A DNA stretch of 64,000 nucleotides, taken from positions 62,001-126,000 of the forward strand of contig CALAOT010000117.1 of NCBI GenBank assembly GCA_937889545.1, in the 5' to 3' direction. This DNA comes from an uncultured Opitutaceae bacterium (lineage in GTDB: Bacteria > Verrucomicrobiota > Verrucomicrobiia > Opitutales > Opitutaceae). The number at the start of each line of letters is the position of its first letter. Position 1 is the stretch's first letter. Shown here in pieces: positions 53,264-58,033 of the stretch. The notes under the pieces are model-generated. The model was not told the origin of the DNA. It was given only the letters and a program-made list of their open reading frames with translations, and did no database searches. The position numbers were made by a program, and so were the translations under genes.

Positions 53264-54451
53264 ATGCGAATCTTAATCGTTGCTTTTGCAGATATTGTTG
53301 CGTCCGCATTGGGGAAACGAATACACGAGCTTAGCAAGGGGTTGGTGAGAAATGGTTGTGATGTTTCGGTAGTGGCGCCGATGAATTTTCATGGACATGA
53401 GCACGAGGAGTCTATCGAAGGCGTTCGGGTGTTATGGGCGACATCGGCGATTCCATCTGATGTGCATAGCAACCTTAAGCGGATTCGCGCCAGGGTGAAA
53501 TTCTATAGGCTGCTGATTCGGTTACTCAACAGCGGTGTTGATGCGGTCGTTTTTTCGAATCCGAGCAGTGAGATGGTCCCTGCAATATATCTCGCAAGAC
53601 TGAAGAAGGCAATCACCATTGCTACATATGATGATGCTCGGAGACTGAATATGCCGGCAACATTTACCGATTATGTAACGTTTTCTGCAGGCTCTGTGGC
53701 CGATCGAATCATTCCGCGAATCGTGTCGGGGAACGCCGCAACGAGTACGATGCTGCGTAAGAGAATTCTCGAGATTGCGCCGGAGAAACGGGCCTTTATT
53801 TTTCCGCCAGTTGTTGACACAGAGCAATTTCAAGAATGCAGCGCTGGGCGAGCAGCATATCGACGGGAGTTCGGGGTGAAGGAAGAGATGCTTGTTGGCT
53901 ATCTAGGCACATTTTGGATAGTGGAAGGGGTAAAGGTGTTGCTGTCTGCTGCTAAGGAGCTTCGGAACAAACAATTAGGGTTTAAAATGGTAGTTTGTGG
54001 AGAGGCGCACGAGGGGCTTCCTTGTGACTGTGTAAGCGAATTAGTTGATGAGTTTGGACTACGTGATATAGTAAGACAGACAGGCTGGCTCGAGAAAAAG
54101 GATGTTATCAATGTGATGAGTGCCTGCGATGTGTTGGTAGTCCCTAAACTGTTAAATGAGGCGAATAAAGCGGGCATGCCGGCAAAGCTTGCGGAGTATA
54201 TGTCGATGGGGAAGGCGGTGGTTGTCAGTCGGATTGGGGACATCCCGCTGTATGCAAAGGATGGGCAAGATTGCTTGATGTGTGAACCTGGAAATGCATC
54301 AAATATTGCGTCGGCGCTGTATCGGCTGGGCTATGACGAACCATTAAGAAGAAGCCTCGGAGCTGCCGCCCGAATTAGTGCTCAAAAGCATTTCGATAGC
54401 AGGGGGGTGGCTTTGAGTTTTCTCACGGAGATGACGTATCTCACGCGTTAA
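53264..54451 (+). CDS. GT4 family glycosyltransferase
   Basis: A 395-residue GT-B enzyme: MRILIVAFADIVASALGKRIHEL at the start, VGYLGTFWIVEGVKVLL opening the donor domain, and a late E-rich nucleotide-sugar motif around KAGMPAKLAEYMSMGKAVV. ATG at 53264. Codons are AT-rich compared with the GT4 genes at 28-30 kb, so it came with this module. Sugar unknown. Confidence 0.87.
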   Translation: MRILIVAFADIVASALGKRIHELSKGLVRNGCDVSVVAPMNFHGHEHEESIEGVRVLWATSAIPSDVHSNLKRIRARVKFYRLLIRLLNSGVDAVVFSNPSSEMVPAIYLARLKKAITIATYDDARRLNMPATFTDYVTFSAGSVADRIIPRIVSGNAATSTMLRKRILEIAPEKRAFIFPPVVDTEQFQECSAGRAAYRREFGVKEEMLVGYLGTFWIVEGVKVLLSAAKELRNKQLGFKMVVCGEAHEGLPCDCVSELVDEFGLRDIVRQTGWLEKKDVINVMSACDVLVVPKLLNEANKAGMPAKLAEYMSMGKAVVVSRIGDIPLYAKDGQDCLMCEPGNASNIASALYRLGYDEPLRRSLGAAARISAQKHFDSRGVALSFLTEMTYLTR

Positions 54452-54454
54452 ACG

Positions 54455-55468
54455 ATGTGGCCTATGTGTGTCTCTTTAAGTGTTGTTGTTCCGACATATA
54501 ATCGGTCTGGTAGATTGCGGCAATGCCTTGCGAGCCTGCTCGCACAAAAGGTCGGATGCAAATGGGAGATTATCGTTATAGATGACTTTTCAGAAGACGA
54601 AACGGCCGTTGTGGCGGCGGAGTTCGCGGCTCGGTACCCGAACGTGCAATATATCCGAAACCTTGAAAACCTAGGAAGATGTAAGACCCGAAATAAAGGA
54701 ATCGAAATTGCCGCAGGGGAATTGATTGTGATGATCGACGATGACGTAACGGTCGACGCTGGGTGTCTGGAGGCACATCTTTCAATTCACCGGGATTTCG
54801 ATTTTGCAAGGGTAGCAGTCATGGGGAATGTGAGATATGCACCGGAGTGTATACGTGGCTCGAATTTCGGACGGTACTTACAATCGAGGTACTTGGGATT
54901 TCGAATCGGCAGGGTTAGGGATCGAGATGACTTGCCCGCCAAGCATTTTGGAACGTTGAACTGCTCATTTCGTAGAGAGGATGCAATTAAGGTAGGAATG
55001 TTGGACGAGAGGTTTCGCTATTATGGAGGTGAAGACGTCGATTTTGCGTTTCGGCTAAAGCGAAGGGGGGTGCGGATAGTCTTTTGTGAGAGGGCGAAAG
55101 GTGAGCATGTTGATATCGTTACGCTGAGTAGGTATAAGGAAAAAATCCTGCAAACGGCGCGTAATGCTTTAAAGATAATGGCGACAGAGGCACCTGAACT
55201 TGTAGAGTCTTCTGGCTATAGATATCTCGTTCCGTATAATAGATGTAGAGATTCCGTGACTATGCGTTTGTTGAAGTGTTTTGTGCCTTTCCTGATGAGC
55301 CGAAGGATTGTGAGATGTGCCGAGCGGTTTGTGGGATGGAGTGACTCGATGCCGATGCTATACTGGGCGTGGGTTTATCATTATCTGATTGCGGGATGGA
55401 CTATTGCTGGAATGGCTGAGCCCGCTTCTGATCGCGAAACGGTTCGTTATGGAAAGTCGGGGCAATAA
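54455..55468 (+). CDS. GT2 family glycosyltransferase
   Basis: A 337-residue GT-A enzyme: LSVVVPTYNRSGRLRQCL, IIVIDDFSEDET, LIVMIDDDVTVDAGC with the metal-binding DDD, and the GGEDVDFAFRLKRRG acceptor-side motif known from galactosyl- and GalNAc-transferases of this fold. A hydrophobic stretch near the C-terminus (LYWAWVYHYLIAGWTIAG) may attach it to the membrane. Three bases separate it from the GT4 stop. Confidence 0.87.
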   Translation: MWPMCVSLSVVVPTYNRSGRLRQCLASLLAQKVGCKWEIIVIDDFSEDETAVVAAEFAARYPNVQYIRNLENLGRCKTRNKGIEIAAGELIVMIDDDVTVDAGCLEAHLSIHRDFDFARVAVMGNVRYAPECIRGSNFGRYLQSRYLGFRIGRVRDRDDLPAKHFGTLNCSFRREDAIKVGMLDERFRYYGGEDVDFAFRLKRRGVRIVFCERAKGEHVDIVTLSRYKEKILQTARNALKIMATEAPELVESSGYRYLVPYNRCRDSVTMRLLKCFVPFLMSRRIVRCAERFVGWSDSMPMLYWAWVYHYLIAGWTIAGMAEPASDRETVRYGKSGQ

Positions 55469-56011
55469 TGCCTCAGTAATGTTTTAGGTATTTGCGGGCA
55501 GTGATACCGGAAGAGGCGATGCGAAGTTAATGCAACGATAGGCCTGATGCAGGTATCTGGAGATTGCTGAGCGATTAAGCGCGAAGCATGAAACAGTTAT
55601 ATTAACCTAAATCCCGCAGTTGACGCGAAGAGTTTCAACTGCGGCGCAGTTGAAGGCAAATGACGCTTTCACCATATAGACAATCACTTAAACCTGCCTT
55701 ACCATCCTCCATTCATCACTAATTTTGATACCAAGAGCAACTCACCCATCGGGTGAACCCGATATCTCGAAATCGACCTCTGTAGTGCGAGTTCCAACTG
55801 CGGGATTAAGGATTAATGGAATACCCGGGTTCGTGCATGAATGATTGCGCCGTGTGGTGTTACGCAATATGTGTTTGCGCAACTGCAGCATGACGGTAGT
55901 CGAGGGAGGTTTAAATTGCTTGTGATGTCGGTACGGATAGATATCTGGGTAAGAGGATAATCAGAAAAGTGTTACTGCCGGTTAAACTAATGTACTATTA
56001 AGCTACTGCCG
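55469..56011. other. Long intergenic region containing a MITE-like element
   Basis: About 540 bp between the GT2 and the epimerase gene. The central 206 bp (55606-55811) is a MITE-like element, listed separately. The remainder shows no gene. The leader before the epimerase at 56012 is AT-rich and may hold a promoter, but I cannot define it. Confidence 0.5.
55606..55811. mobile_element. MITE-like non-autonomous element with 17-bp inverted ends and 5-bp flanking repeat
   Basis: The left end CCTAAATCCCGCAGTTG (55606-55622) and the right end CAACTGCGGGATTAAGG (55795-55811) are inverted repeats, 16 of 17 matching. The element is flanked by ATTAA on both sides (55601-55605 and 55812-55816), as expected for a target-site duplication. 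Inside the left end lies a hairpin, CCGCAGTTGA (55614-55623) with TCAACTGCGG (55635-55644) and an 11-nt loop, and a further CGCAGTTGA copy at 55645-55653. No open reading frame is present, so it would need a transposase elsewhere in the genome. Confidence 0.8.
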
Positions 56012-56953
56012 ATGAAATCGCTTGTTACTGGGGGCGCTGGTTTTATCGGCTCCCATGTTGTTGGTCTGCTTCTTAGCGAAGGGCACGACGTCACGGTGCT
56101 CGATAGCCTCGCTTCGGGATATCGCGAGAATCTAGGTCGTTTCCCGGAGGCCCGACTAATAGTTGGCGATGTGCGAGACCTATCGCTATTGCGAGTTGCG
56201 GCCCGTGGGGCGGAGGTGATTTTTCACTTAGCGGCGTCTGTAGGCAACAAGCGTTCGATAGAGCACCCTCGATTAGATGCTGAGATCAACGTATTAGGCA
56301 CATTGAATGTGCTGGAAACTGCGCGGGACATTGGAGTACGGAAAGTAGTTTTTTCGTCGTCCGCAGGAGTCTTCGGAGAGCTGAAAACAATCCCGATTTC
56401 GGAGAACCACCCCGCTGAGCCTACGTCACCATACGGCGCAACAAAGCTATGTGGAGAAAAGCTATGTCTTGCCTACGCAAACATCTATACGCCGATTGAA
56501 GCGGTTTGCCTACGTTATTTCAACGTTTATGGCGTAAATCAACGCTATGACGCCTACGGCAACGTCATACCGATATTTGCGTATAGGCTACTTCGTCGAG
56601 AATGTATTACGGTTTTTGGTGATGGAGAACAGACTCGCGATTTTATTAATGTTGCCGATGTCGCTCGCGCCAATTTACTTGCCGCAAAAAGCCGTGGGCT
56701 AAGTGGGGCATTCAATGTCGGCAGCGGTTCACGAGTGTCAATCAACGCGCTAGTGACTATAATGCGCGAGACCTCTGGACTCGATGCTAAGGTCCTACAT
56801 GCGCCGCTCCGTGCCGGCGATGTGCGGGATAGCTTAGCCGACATCAGCGCGATTCGTTCGACACTTGGTTTCGAAGCAAGAGTCGATTTGCGCTCAGGGC
56901 TACGGGAATACATAGATTGGGCGAAGACCTCCCTGAGTGGATGGGCTATTTAG
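56012..56953 (+). CDS. NAD-dependent epimerase (GalE/WbpP-like)
   Basis: A 313-residue extended SDR: MKSLVTGGAGFIGSH, IFHLAASVGNKRSIEHP, FSSSAGVFGE in the catalytic Ser region (Phe where Tyr is common), SPYGATKLCGEK with the catalytic Tyr and Lys, RYFNVYGVNQ and GSGSRVSINAL. It probably interconverts UDP-GlcNAc/GalNAc or UDP-Glc/Gal to supply the repeat unit. ATG at 56012 after the MITE-containing gap; 57 bp before fnlA. Confidence 0.87.
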   Translation: MKSLVTGGAGFIGSHVVGLLLSEGHDVTVLDSLASGYRENLGRFPEARLIVGDVRDLSLLRVAARGAEVIFHLAASVGNKRSIEHPRLDAEINVLGTLNVLETARDIGVRKVVFSSSAGVFGELKTIPISENHPAEPTSPYGATKLCGEKLCLAYANIYTPIEAVCLRYFNVYGVNQRYDAYGNVIPIFAYRLLRRECITVFGDGEQTRDFINVADVARANLLAAKSRGLSGAFNVGSGSRVSINALVTIMRETSGLDAKVLHAPLRAGDVRDSLADISAIRSTLGFEARVDLRSGLREYIDWAKTSLSGWAI

Positions 56954-57010
56954 ATAAAAGATTTCAGTCAGCTGTTGACATCTCGGTGGCAGATGCACAT
57001 TTGAGCGCCT

Positions 57011-58033
57011 ATGTTTGAGGGGAAAATACTTTTAATCACTGGTGGCACAGGTAGCTTTGGGAATGCGGTGCTGCGGCGGCTCATCAAGAGTGACATATCT
57101 CAGATCCGAATCTTCTCAAGAGATGAGAAGAAGCAAGACGACATGCGCCATGAATACGAGGATCTGAAGTTGAAATTCTATATAGGGGACGTGCGGAATA
57201 AGAGCAGCATCGCCGAGGCGATGAACGGTGTGGATTTCGTGTTCCATGCAGCGGCGCTCAAACAGGTACCCTCCTGCGAGTTTTATCCTATGGAGGCGAT
57301 TCGGACCAATATACTCGGCGCAGAAAACGTTCTTGACGCAGCCTTAGAAGCCAGAGTCAAACGTGTCGTGGTGTTAAGCACAGATAAGGCGGCGTACCCG
57401 ATAAATGTGATGGGAATGTCTAAGGCGTTGATGGAGAAACTTATGATTGCTCGCTCGCGTGTGGCCGCGGAAAGAGGCGTTGTCTTTTGTGGTACACGCT
57501 ATGGCAACGTGATGGGATCGCGAGGTTCGGTTATTCCGCTCTTTATGCAGCAGGCCGATGCGGGCCAGGCATTCACGGTGACGGATCCGAACATGACACG
57601 ATTCATGATGAACATAGATGGCGCGGTAGATTTGGTGCTGTTCGCGTTTAATGAAGCGAAGGCGGGGGATCGATTTGTTCTAAAGGCACCAGCAGCTACC
57701 ATTGGCACGCTGGTCGAGGCGATGAAACGTTTATTGAAGGCGGACAATCCGATAAAAATCATTGGAACGCGTCACGGGGAGAAACTCTATGAGACCTTGC
57801 TAACAAGAGAGGAAATGACTCTCGCAAAAGACCTAGGAGCATACTACAGTGTACCAGCAGACAACCGGGATTTGAACTATAATCTTTATTTTTCGGAGGG
57901 GATGCCCAAGGCGGCAAAGGTAGAGGATTATCATTCTCACAATACAAGGCGCTTGAGCGTCAATGAGATGATGGAGTTATTGGTCGCATTGCCCGAGATG
58001 CGGCATGCGAGGGAACGTCGCGGTGTTGCGTAA
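57011..58033 (+). CDS. fnlA: UDP-GlcNAc 4,6-dehydratase/5-epimerase (FnlA/WbjB/CapE)
   Basis: A 340-residue SDR with ILLITGGTGSFGNAVLRR at the start and FHAAALKQVPSCEFYPMEAI. The STDKAAYPINVMGMSK segment has Met in place of the usual catalytic Tyr, with the Lys kept, as in the FlaA1/CapE group. TRYGNVMGSRGSVIPLF and the late GEKLYETL are also present. It performs the first step of UDP-L-FucNAc synthesis, giving a 4-keto-6-deoxy-hexose intermediate. The FnlB and FnlC homologues follow, which makes the assignment firm. Confidence 0.93.
   Translation: MFEGKILLITGGTGSFGNAVLRRLIKSDISQIRIFSRDEKKQDDMRHEYEDLKLKFYIGDVRNKSSIAEAMNGVDFVFHAAALKQVPSCEFYPMEAIRTNILGAENVLDAALEARVKRVVVLSTDKAAYPINVMGMSKALMEKLMIARSRVAAERGVVFCGTRYGNVMGSRGSVIPLFMQQADAGQAFTVTDPNMTRFMMNIDGAVDLVLFAFNEAKAGDRFVLKAPAATIGTLVEAMKRLLKADNPIKIIGTRHGEKLYETLLTREEMTLAKDLGAYYSVPADNRDLNYNLYFSEGMPKAAKVEDYHSHNTRRLSVNEMMELLVALPEMRHARERRGVA

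Follow-up and report, generated by a model that had tools for sequence, protein, structure and literature searches.

A 206-bp element of an Opitutaceae genome shares its ends and two internal palindromes with IS1380-family transposons

Results

A repeat-bounded element without a gene lies between two coding sequences

The window, a 64,000-nucleotide stretch of a contig from an uncultured Opitutaceae bacterium, contains a 206-bp element situated between two plus-strand genes (54455-55468 and 56012-56953). From their translations we take the first to be a glycosyltransferase-like gene and the second a sugar-nucleotide epimerase-like gene, and the neighbourhood presumably is a polysaccharide cluster. 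An earlier, sequence-only reading had described a MITE-like element here, with 17-bp inverted ends, ATTAA on both sides, a core motif repeated three times beside a 10-bp hairpin at the left end, and no gene inside; every one of these features is present in the sequence (Table 1). The terminal inverted repeats are 17 nt long and complementary at 16/17 positions (94%), the two ATTAA pentamers are identical, and the short stop-free stretches leave no coding capacity. There are three occurrences of the core motif, CGCAGTTG: at 55615-55622, at 55645-55652 and, in inverted orientation, at 55636-55643. The 10-nt arms of the hairpin are 55614-55623 and 55635-55644; a tighter alternative pairs 55634-55643 with 55645-55654, with a single base separating the arms.

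Table 1. Positions of the features of the window element and of related elements in genome G245.
Feature	Position	Strand	Evidence or correspondence
Target-site duplication ATTAA, left	55601..55605		Sequence; identical to 55812-55816
MITE, 206 bp, without ORF	55606..55811		Second copy 95% identical; longest stop-free stretch 40 aa
Left terminal inverted repeat CCTAAATCCCGCAGTTG	55606..55622	+	3' (transposase C-terminal) end of parent IS
Subterminal palindrome TTCAACTGCG-G-CGCAGTTGAA	55634..55654		Two inner end-repeat octamers, inverted; parent transposase codons 456-462
Second palindrome TCACCC-ATC-GGGTGA	55742..55756		Counterpart bases in parent transposase codons 10-15
Right terminal inverted repeat, CCTTAATCCCGCAGTTG on minus strand	55795..55811	-	5' end of parent IS
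Target-site duplication ATTAA, right	55812..55816		Sequence
Second group of G245 elements	L269 379-649, L270 262-504, L271 202-470, L272 306-534, L274 333-466

The likelihood that such an arrangement arises by chance was assessed by searching for inverted 17-mers with at least 16 matches that delimit units of 60-500 bp and are bordered by an exact 5-bp direct repeat. The whole window holds one such unit, and in 40 dinucleotide-preserving shuffles the inverted ends never had more than 14 matches. A search of Rfam across window positions 54000-57500 returned nothing at E<=1.

Two copies with separate target duplications in one genome

A second copy of the element is present in the same genome (G000; assembly of 4.33 Mb in 128 contigs, 92% complete) at G000:C92:55461-55666, 95% identical over 206 bp, with 10 differences between the copies. 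The flanking duplication is ATAAA (5/5) at the C92 copy and ATTAA (5/5) at the window copy; a separate exact 5-bp duplication at each site is strong evidence for transposition. These observations also bear on whether the element might be a REP/BIME-like or other intergenic palindromic repeat and not a transposon. It is indeed small, palindromic and intergenic, but it is a defined 206-bp unit with terminal repeats and an exact 5-bp duplication at both copies, its copy number is only two, and transposase-bearing relatives have the same ends (see below), which together leave that alternative highly improbable.

The sequence-only reading had also supposed that the element could be active and numerous, with many copies to be found by a search of the genome. 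That search yielded the one further copy at C92, with its own 5-bp duplication, and not the many expected: four end repeats with at most two mismatches occur in G000, every one of them in the two MITE copies, so the MITE is not numerous there. Nor do the 10 differences in 206 bases suggest recent movement of the two copies. A protein search (E<=1e-20) found no transposase of the matching group in this assembly, which at 92% complete may be missing one. The domain PF13701 gave seven matches in G000, which fall at two places on contig C58 and at one place each on C92 and C77. The genome's own IS1380 elements were rejected as the source of the MITE, as the PF13701 loci that were fetched carry no end repeat at fewer than five mismatches; an automatic search for the own ends of these elements gave no good pair. 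The two IS1380-type transposase genes on C58 (6959-8242 and 10122-11408) are 83% identical, lie in opposite senses about 1.9 kb apart, and have ends unlike those of the window element. The transposase source of G000 thus probably has been lost or is unassembled, and its two MITE copies are probably dormant.

An empty site in relatives, to which the earlier reading had also looked, did not emerge: among 13 genomes of the genus there was no clean one for either copy. The insertion site of the window copy is spanned in none of the 13; at the C92 insertion point, G003, G007 and G009 reach the flank on one side and G010 on the other, and none reads across.

Full-length IS1380-family elements carry the same ends

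In a first sample of relatives, 57 genomes with G000 counted in, a DNA match to the element was found in G000 only, and plasmid and E. coli DNA collections gave no match. A DNA search of 252 genomes of the same family found matches in 13, comprising G000 and 12 others. Six matching loci (L091, L092, L094, L095, L099 and L101) were set aside as likely chance matches, having neither an end-repeat pair nor a palindrome.

A transposase with the same ends, which the earlier reading had sought in the element's own genome, was found not there but in full elements of relatives. The element of G002, from the same genus, is 1528 bp long with duplication ATCAA (5/5); that of G183 is 1524 bp long with duplication GTAAT (5/5), and a single stop breaks its transposase. 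Both ends of both elements are within two mismatches of the window element's left end. Full elements in G117, G271 and G078 have more varied ends and duplications of 5/5. Less complete cases were an element in G003 (same genus), with ends present, flanks matching 1/5 and an altered 3' palindrome (6/8 pairs), one on contig C113 of G030, with flanks matching 3/5, and those of G160 and G067, which run into contig ends.

The G002 transposase is 480 aa long; it matches PF13701 at E 6.8e-30 and the NCBIfam model NF033539 (IS1380) at 180.6 bits, narrowly over the cut-off of 180. This transposase or its relatives occur in 59/252 family genomes (protein search, E<=1e-20), G000 not being among them. The 5-bp duplications seen at elements (ATTAA, ATAAA, CTTAT, TTGAT and others) are variable and AT-rich. 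With an IS1380 transposase, 17-bp ends and a 5-bp duplication, the parent elements fit the IS1380 family.

Two further sets of elements were noted. L244, L245, L249 and L250 (G233 and G130) are IS1380-type elements of 1741 and 1755 bp with ends matching at 16-17/17 positions and exact duplications, and they keep CACCC-N3-GGGTG near the 5' end though their transposase is only 31-33% identical. Among three named plasmid elements, the one from Polaromonas has CCTA...CGGCAGTTA-type ends (13/17) and the duplication TTAAA; the remaining two showed no clear ends.

Related MITEs in other genomes of the family

G245 has 60 end repeats at up to two mismatches, against 0 for the reversed control. It carries 202-bp MITEs built on the plan of the window element, with 7 complete copies among the loci read. 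Duplications at these seven are exact in five, 4/5 in one and 3/5 in one; the 5' palindrome is present in 7/7 and an exact 3' palindrome in 6/7. Pieces of transposase genes in G245 adjoin the same end repeat and are 52-54% identical to the G002 transposase. Two of these pieces (L257 and L258) have CACCC-N3-GGGTG 89 bases in from the end, and the third (L259) has the end repeat and lacks this palindrome. MITE-like elements were also found in G237 (204 bp, duplication ATTAT, five mismatches in one end), G099 (282 bp, duplication ATTAA, four mismatches in one end) and G021 (203 bp, duplication 4/5). The sequence CAACTGCGNCGCAGTTG, the 3'-side palindrome described below, is present in 25/252 family genomes, with 0 among the rows listed for the reversed control, and among 372 sampled genomes from the order, eight have the palindrome pattern, all within this family. 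A locus in G106 (contig C66; L286, 200-376) holds a 177-bp element with variant ends and the exact duplication ATGAA, in whose interior a long inverted repeat is visible by eye.

G245 also harbours shorter forms. Three 46-bp elements (L266 310-355, L267 330-375 and L268 303-348) consist of a pair of 17-bp end repeats separated by 12 bp, and in 2/3 the 5-bp duplication is exact (TTAAT, TTTAT). All three look like the 202-bp MITE internally deleted between 9-bp direct repeats, CAACTGCGG, one in the palindrome and one in the end repeat; the deletion may have come after insertion. A second group with the same ends has palindromes of the GGCGACTGAAGTCGCC type, whole or in part, in its interior (Table 1), with exact 5-bp duplications at L270 (243 bp) and L274 (134 bp), 4/5 at L272 and none at L269 and L271. 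Elements with neither window-type palindrome are therefore found with exact duplications in G245 (two of the three 46-bp elements, together with L270 and L274), which indicates that the palindromes are not indispensable.

The second copy with a different exact duplication, the MITEs of relatives and the full IS1380-family elements with the same ends all lead to the reading of the window element as a MITE, and the identification first made from the sequence is borne out. MITEs are a few hundred base pairs in size. The element is 206 bp long, lacks a transposase, has inverted ends and a duplication at each copy, is repeated (two copies), and shares its ends with transposase-bearing elements in G002 and G183. 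That it is an IS1380-driven MITE we regard as close to certain. For the fuller reading, namely a non-autonomous MITE of an IS1380-family IS that would have inserted by the route, and with the palindrome roles, proposed below, we would put the probability at roughly 0.88.

Two palindromes lie within the transposase gene

When the MITEs were aligned with the end regions of the full elements, four common blocks appeared: a terminal repeat at each end and two palindromes. The palindrome on the 3' side, CAACTGCGNCGCAGTTG, contains the inner octamer of the terminal repeat twice, in inverted orientation. Its distance from the 3' end is 75-88 bp in the five full elements of this group that were delimited; three of them have it exactly, G117 and G271 each have a single changed base, and it occupies the transposase codons for Thr-Thr-Ala-Pro-Gln-Leu-Lys. 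In the close group the 5' palindrome, CACCC-N3-GGGTG, is found within codons 10-15, at 87-89 bases from the 5' end; among the same five elements it is exact in three, has one changed base in G078 and is unmatched by the pattern in G271. Both palindromes are closer to the ends in the window MITE than in the parent IS, and are non-coding there.

Sequences within a gene may be conserved for the sake of the protein, and we compared codon use accordingly. Thirty loci were picked by transposase similarity and not by the palindrome, giving 22 homologs at >=60% identity; L162, chosen by its palindrome, was left out, and the profile alignment omitted L242. The measure was codon identity among sequences having the commonest residue. 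The four top-ranking six-codon windows, out of 419, begin at codons 459, 458, 457 and 456, and the next begins at codon 10; neighbouring windows overlap and represent two places, not five independent ones. Synonymous-codon identity was 1.0 at codons 457-462, compared with an overall per-codon mean of 0.68. The best-kept synonymous codons thus coincide with both palindromes, which points to a function as DNA or RNA beyond the protein code. Base pairing was similarly retained at the 3' site: in 18 covering loci, all 8 arm pairs are kept in 11 and 6 or 7 in the other 7.

Protein constraint alone, acting on Thr-Ala-Pro-Gln-Leu-Lys and on the N-terminal His-Pro-x-Gly-Glu, might be invoked for these codons, given that 14-16 of 16 close homologs agree at residues 457-462. 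Such constraint would not fix degenerate third positions, however, and at the 5' site the residues vary (IHPLGE, LHPAGE, LHLAGE, IQLAGE) while 5-8/8 arm pairs remain in the close group. Moreover, the non-coding MITEs have both sites too. We consider this explanation very unlikely.

The 3' palindrome follows the end motif across IS1380-type elements

Eighteen delimited IS1380-type elements were scored for a palindrome made of their own inner end octamer. Near the 3' end, ten have one at >=14/16, located 62-97 bp from that end and once at 176; three have a weak one (12-13/16), and in five (G185, G233a, G130, G140 and G152) it is absent. Near the 5' end none of the 18 reaches 14/16, and a CACC...GGTG palindrome is found there in 8/18. 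In clades with CGAAGTTG and TGCAGTTG ends, one or both palindrome arms show the corresponding change, the left arm of the TGCAGTTG clade following its end motif incompletely. Sixty base shuffles of each 3' end gave maxima of mostly 12-13 and at most 14/16. Since shuffled ends can reach 14/16, single cases at 14 are weak, and the evidence lies in the pattern over the clades, which are few.

Hairpins near IS ends limit impinging transcription, and the palindromes might accordingly be transcription or RNA signals, attenuators acting against outside transcription or against transposase translation, in place of DNA sites for the transposase. Consistent with this, the whole window element folds better than 200/200 shuffles (z-scores of -3.79 as RNA and -3.87 as DNA), and the 5' palindrome occupies codons 10-15, a position at which a hairpin in the mRNA could reduce translation. 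Resemblance to the ends would be unnecessary for an RNA hairpin, however, and the 3' palindrome both reproduces the terminal repeat's inner motif and largely tracks it in the CGAAGTTG and TGCAGTTG clades. The sole terminator-like site listed in the element has 6 pairs and uses neither palindrome as its stem, and the gene-less MITEs retain both sites. We regard RNA signalling as an unlikely, though not negligible, account of the palindromes.

Discussion

From the comparisons above we suggest that the palindromes most likely serve as sites of the transposase or of a regulator and render the two ends unequal, in the manner of piggyBac. The window element would have been inserted at an ATTAA target by an IS1380-type transposase acting in trans, with CGCAGTTG, the inner motif of the ends, as its recognition sequence. 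At one end alone, the 3'-side palindrome would contribute two further binding sites, giving three sites against one, and such unequal ends could pair in a fixed sense. That the 3' palindrome is an additional site for the transposase, and renders the ends unequal, seems to us slightly the better bet. The 5'-side CACCC-N3-GGGTG could be a second site, for the transposase or for a regulator, acting as DNA or as RNA; the odds that it acts as DNA appear about even. A general form of the proposal is more tentative, and we think it rather less probable than not: IS1380 elements and their MITEs would have piggyBac-like unequal ends, with a transposase dimer on the palindrome in the last codons and a partner or regulatory role for the 5' palindrome, and the MITEs would carry this cis code in reduced form.

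Two palindromes within coding sequence offer testable cis sites for the IS1380 transposases, to whose family ISEcp1 belongs, and for studies of binding the 206- and 202-bp elements provide minimal substrates of natural origin. If one end does have a dimer site, this would tie bacterial IS1380 elements to the unequal ends of piggyBac and would bear on why elements of the ISPme1 type misread one end.

The window element resembles IS1380-family elements in the transposase family of its parents (PF13701, NF033539), in end length and in its 5-bp duplication, and differs in having no transposase of its own. In the portions of the published accounts available, IS1247 is given as 1672 bp with terminal repeats of 16/13 and a 5-bp duplication (PMC3281130); ISPme1 moves DNA adjoining its 3' end, which is ascribed to misrecognition of the end (PMC9330008); and ISEcp1 is a mover of neighbouring genes (PMC9330008). 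The mobilisation by ISPme1 indicates that unequal end use is already known in the IS1380 family. Those same portions contain no mention of paired internal palindromes for IS1247, ISPme1 or ISEcp1 (PMC3281130, PMC9330008).

Among open-literature texts mentioning both IS1380 and MITEs, as far as their accessible parts go, none describes an IS1380-derived MITE (subscription papers and ISfinder lay outside this scope), and a search for MITEs together with Opitutaceae, again outside subscription papers, gave no pairing. The nearest case is MITEPye1 of Paracoccus yeei, which according to the available part of its description is likewise a low-copy (1-3) intergenic MITE with terminal and direct repeats and a long stem-loop, whereas its ends match IS1182-family elements and not IS1380 (PMC11578231).

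PiggyBac and IS1380 have been paired as eukaryotic and prokaryotic counterparts (PMC5718144) and linked through outgroup use (PMC10813416), in the parts of these papers that could be consulted. Searching PDB sequences with profile A1 (hmmsearch, a sequence profile only) listed four sequences at E<=10, none a transposase and none piggyBac. The target of piggyBac is TTAA, in contrast to the variable, AT-rich 5-bp duplication here, and its 19-bp internal repeat is present at both ends, unlike the end-motif palindrome, which is found at one; with target and end layout differing, we do not claim membership of the piggyBac superfamily for the window element. What the two have in common is an internal repeat, palindromic and adjacent to the terminal repeat; in piggyBac, according to the part of the study available, a dimer of the transposase C-terminal domain binds the internal repeat at one end only and so produces an unequal synapse (PMC7351741).
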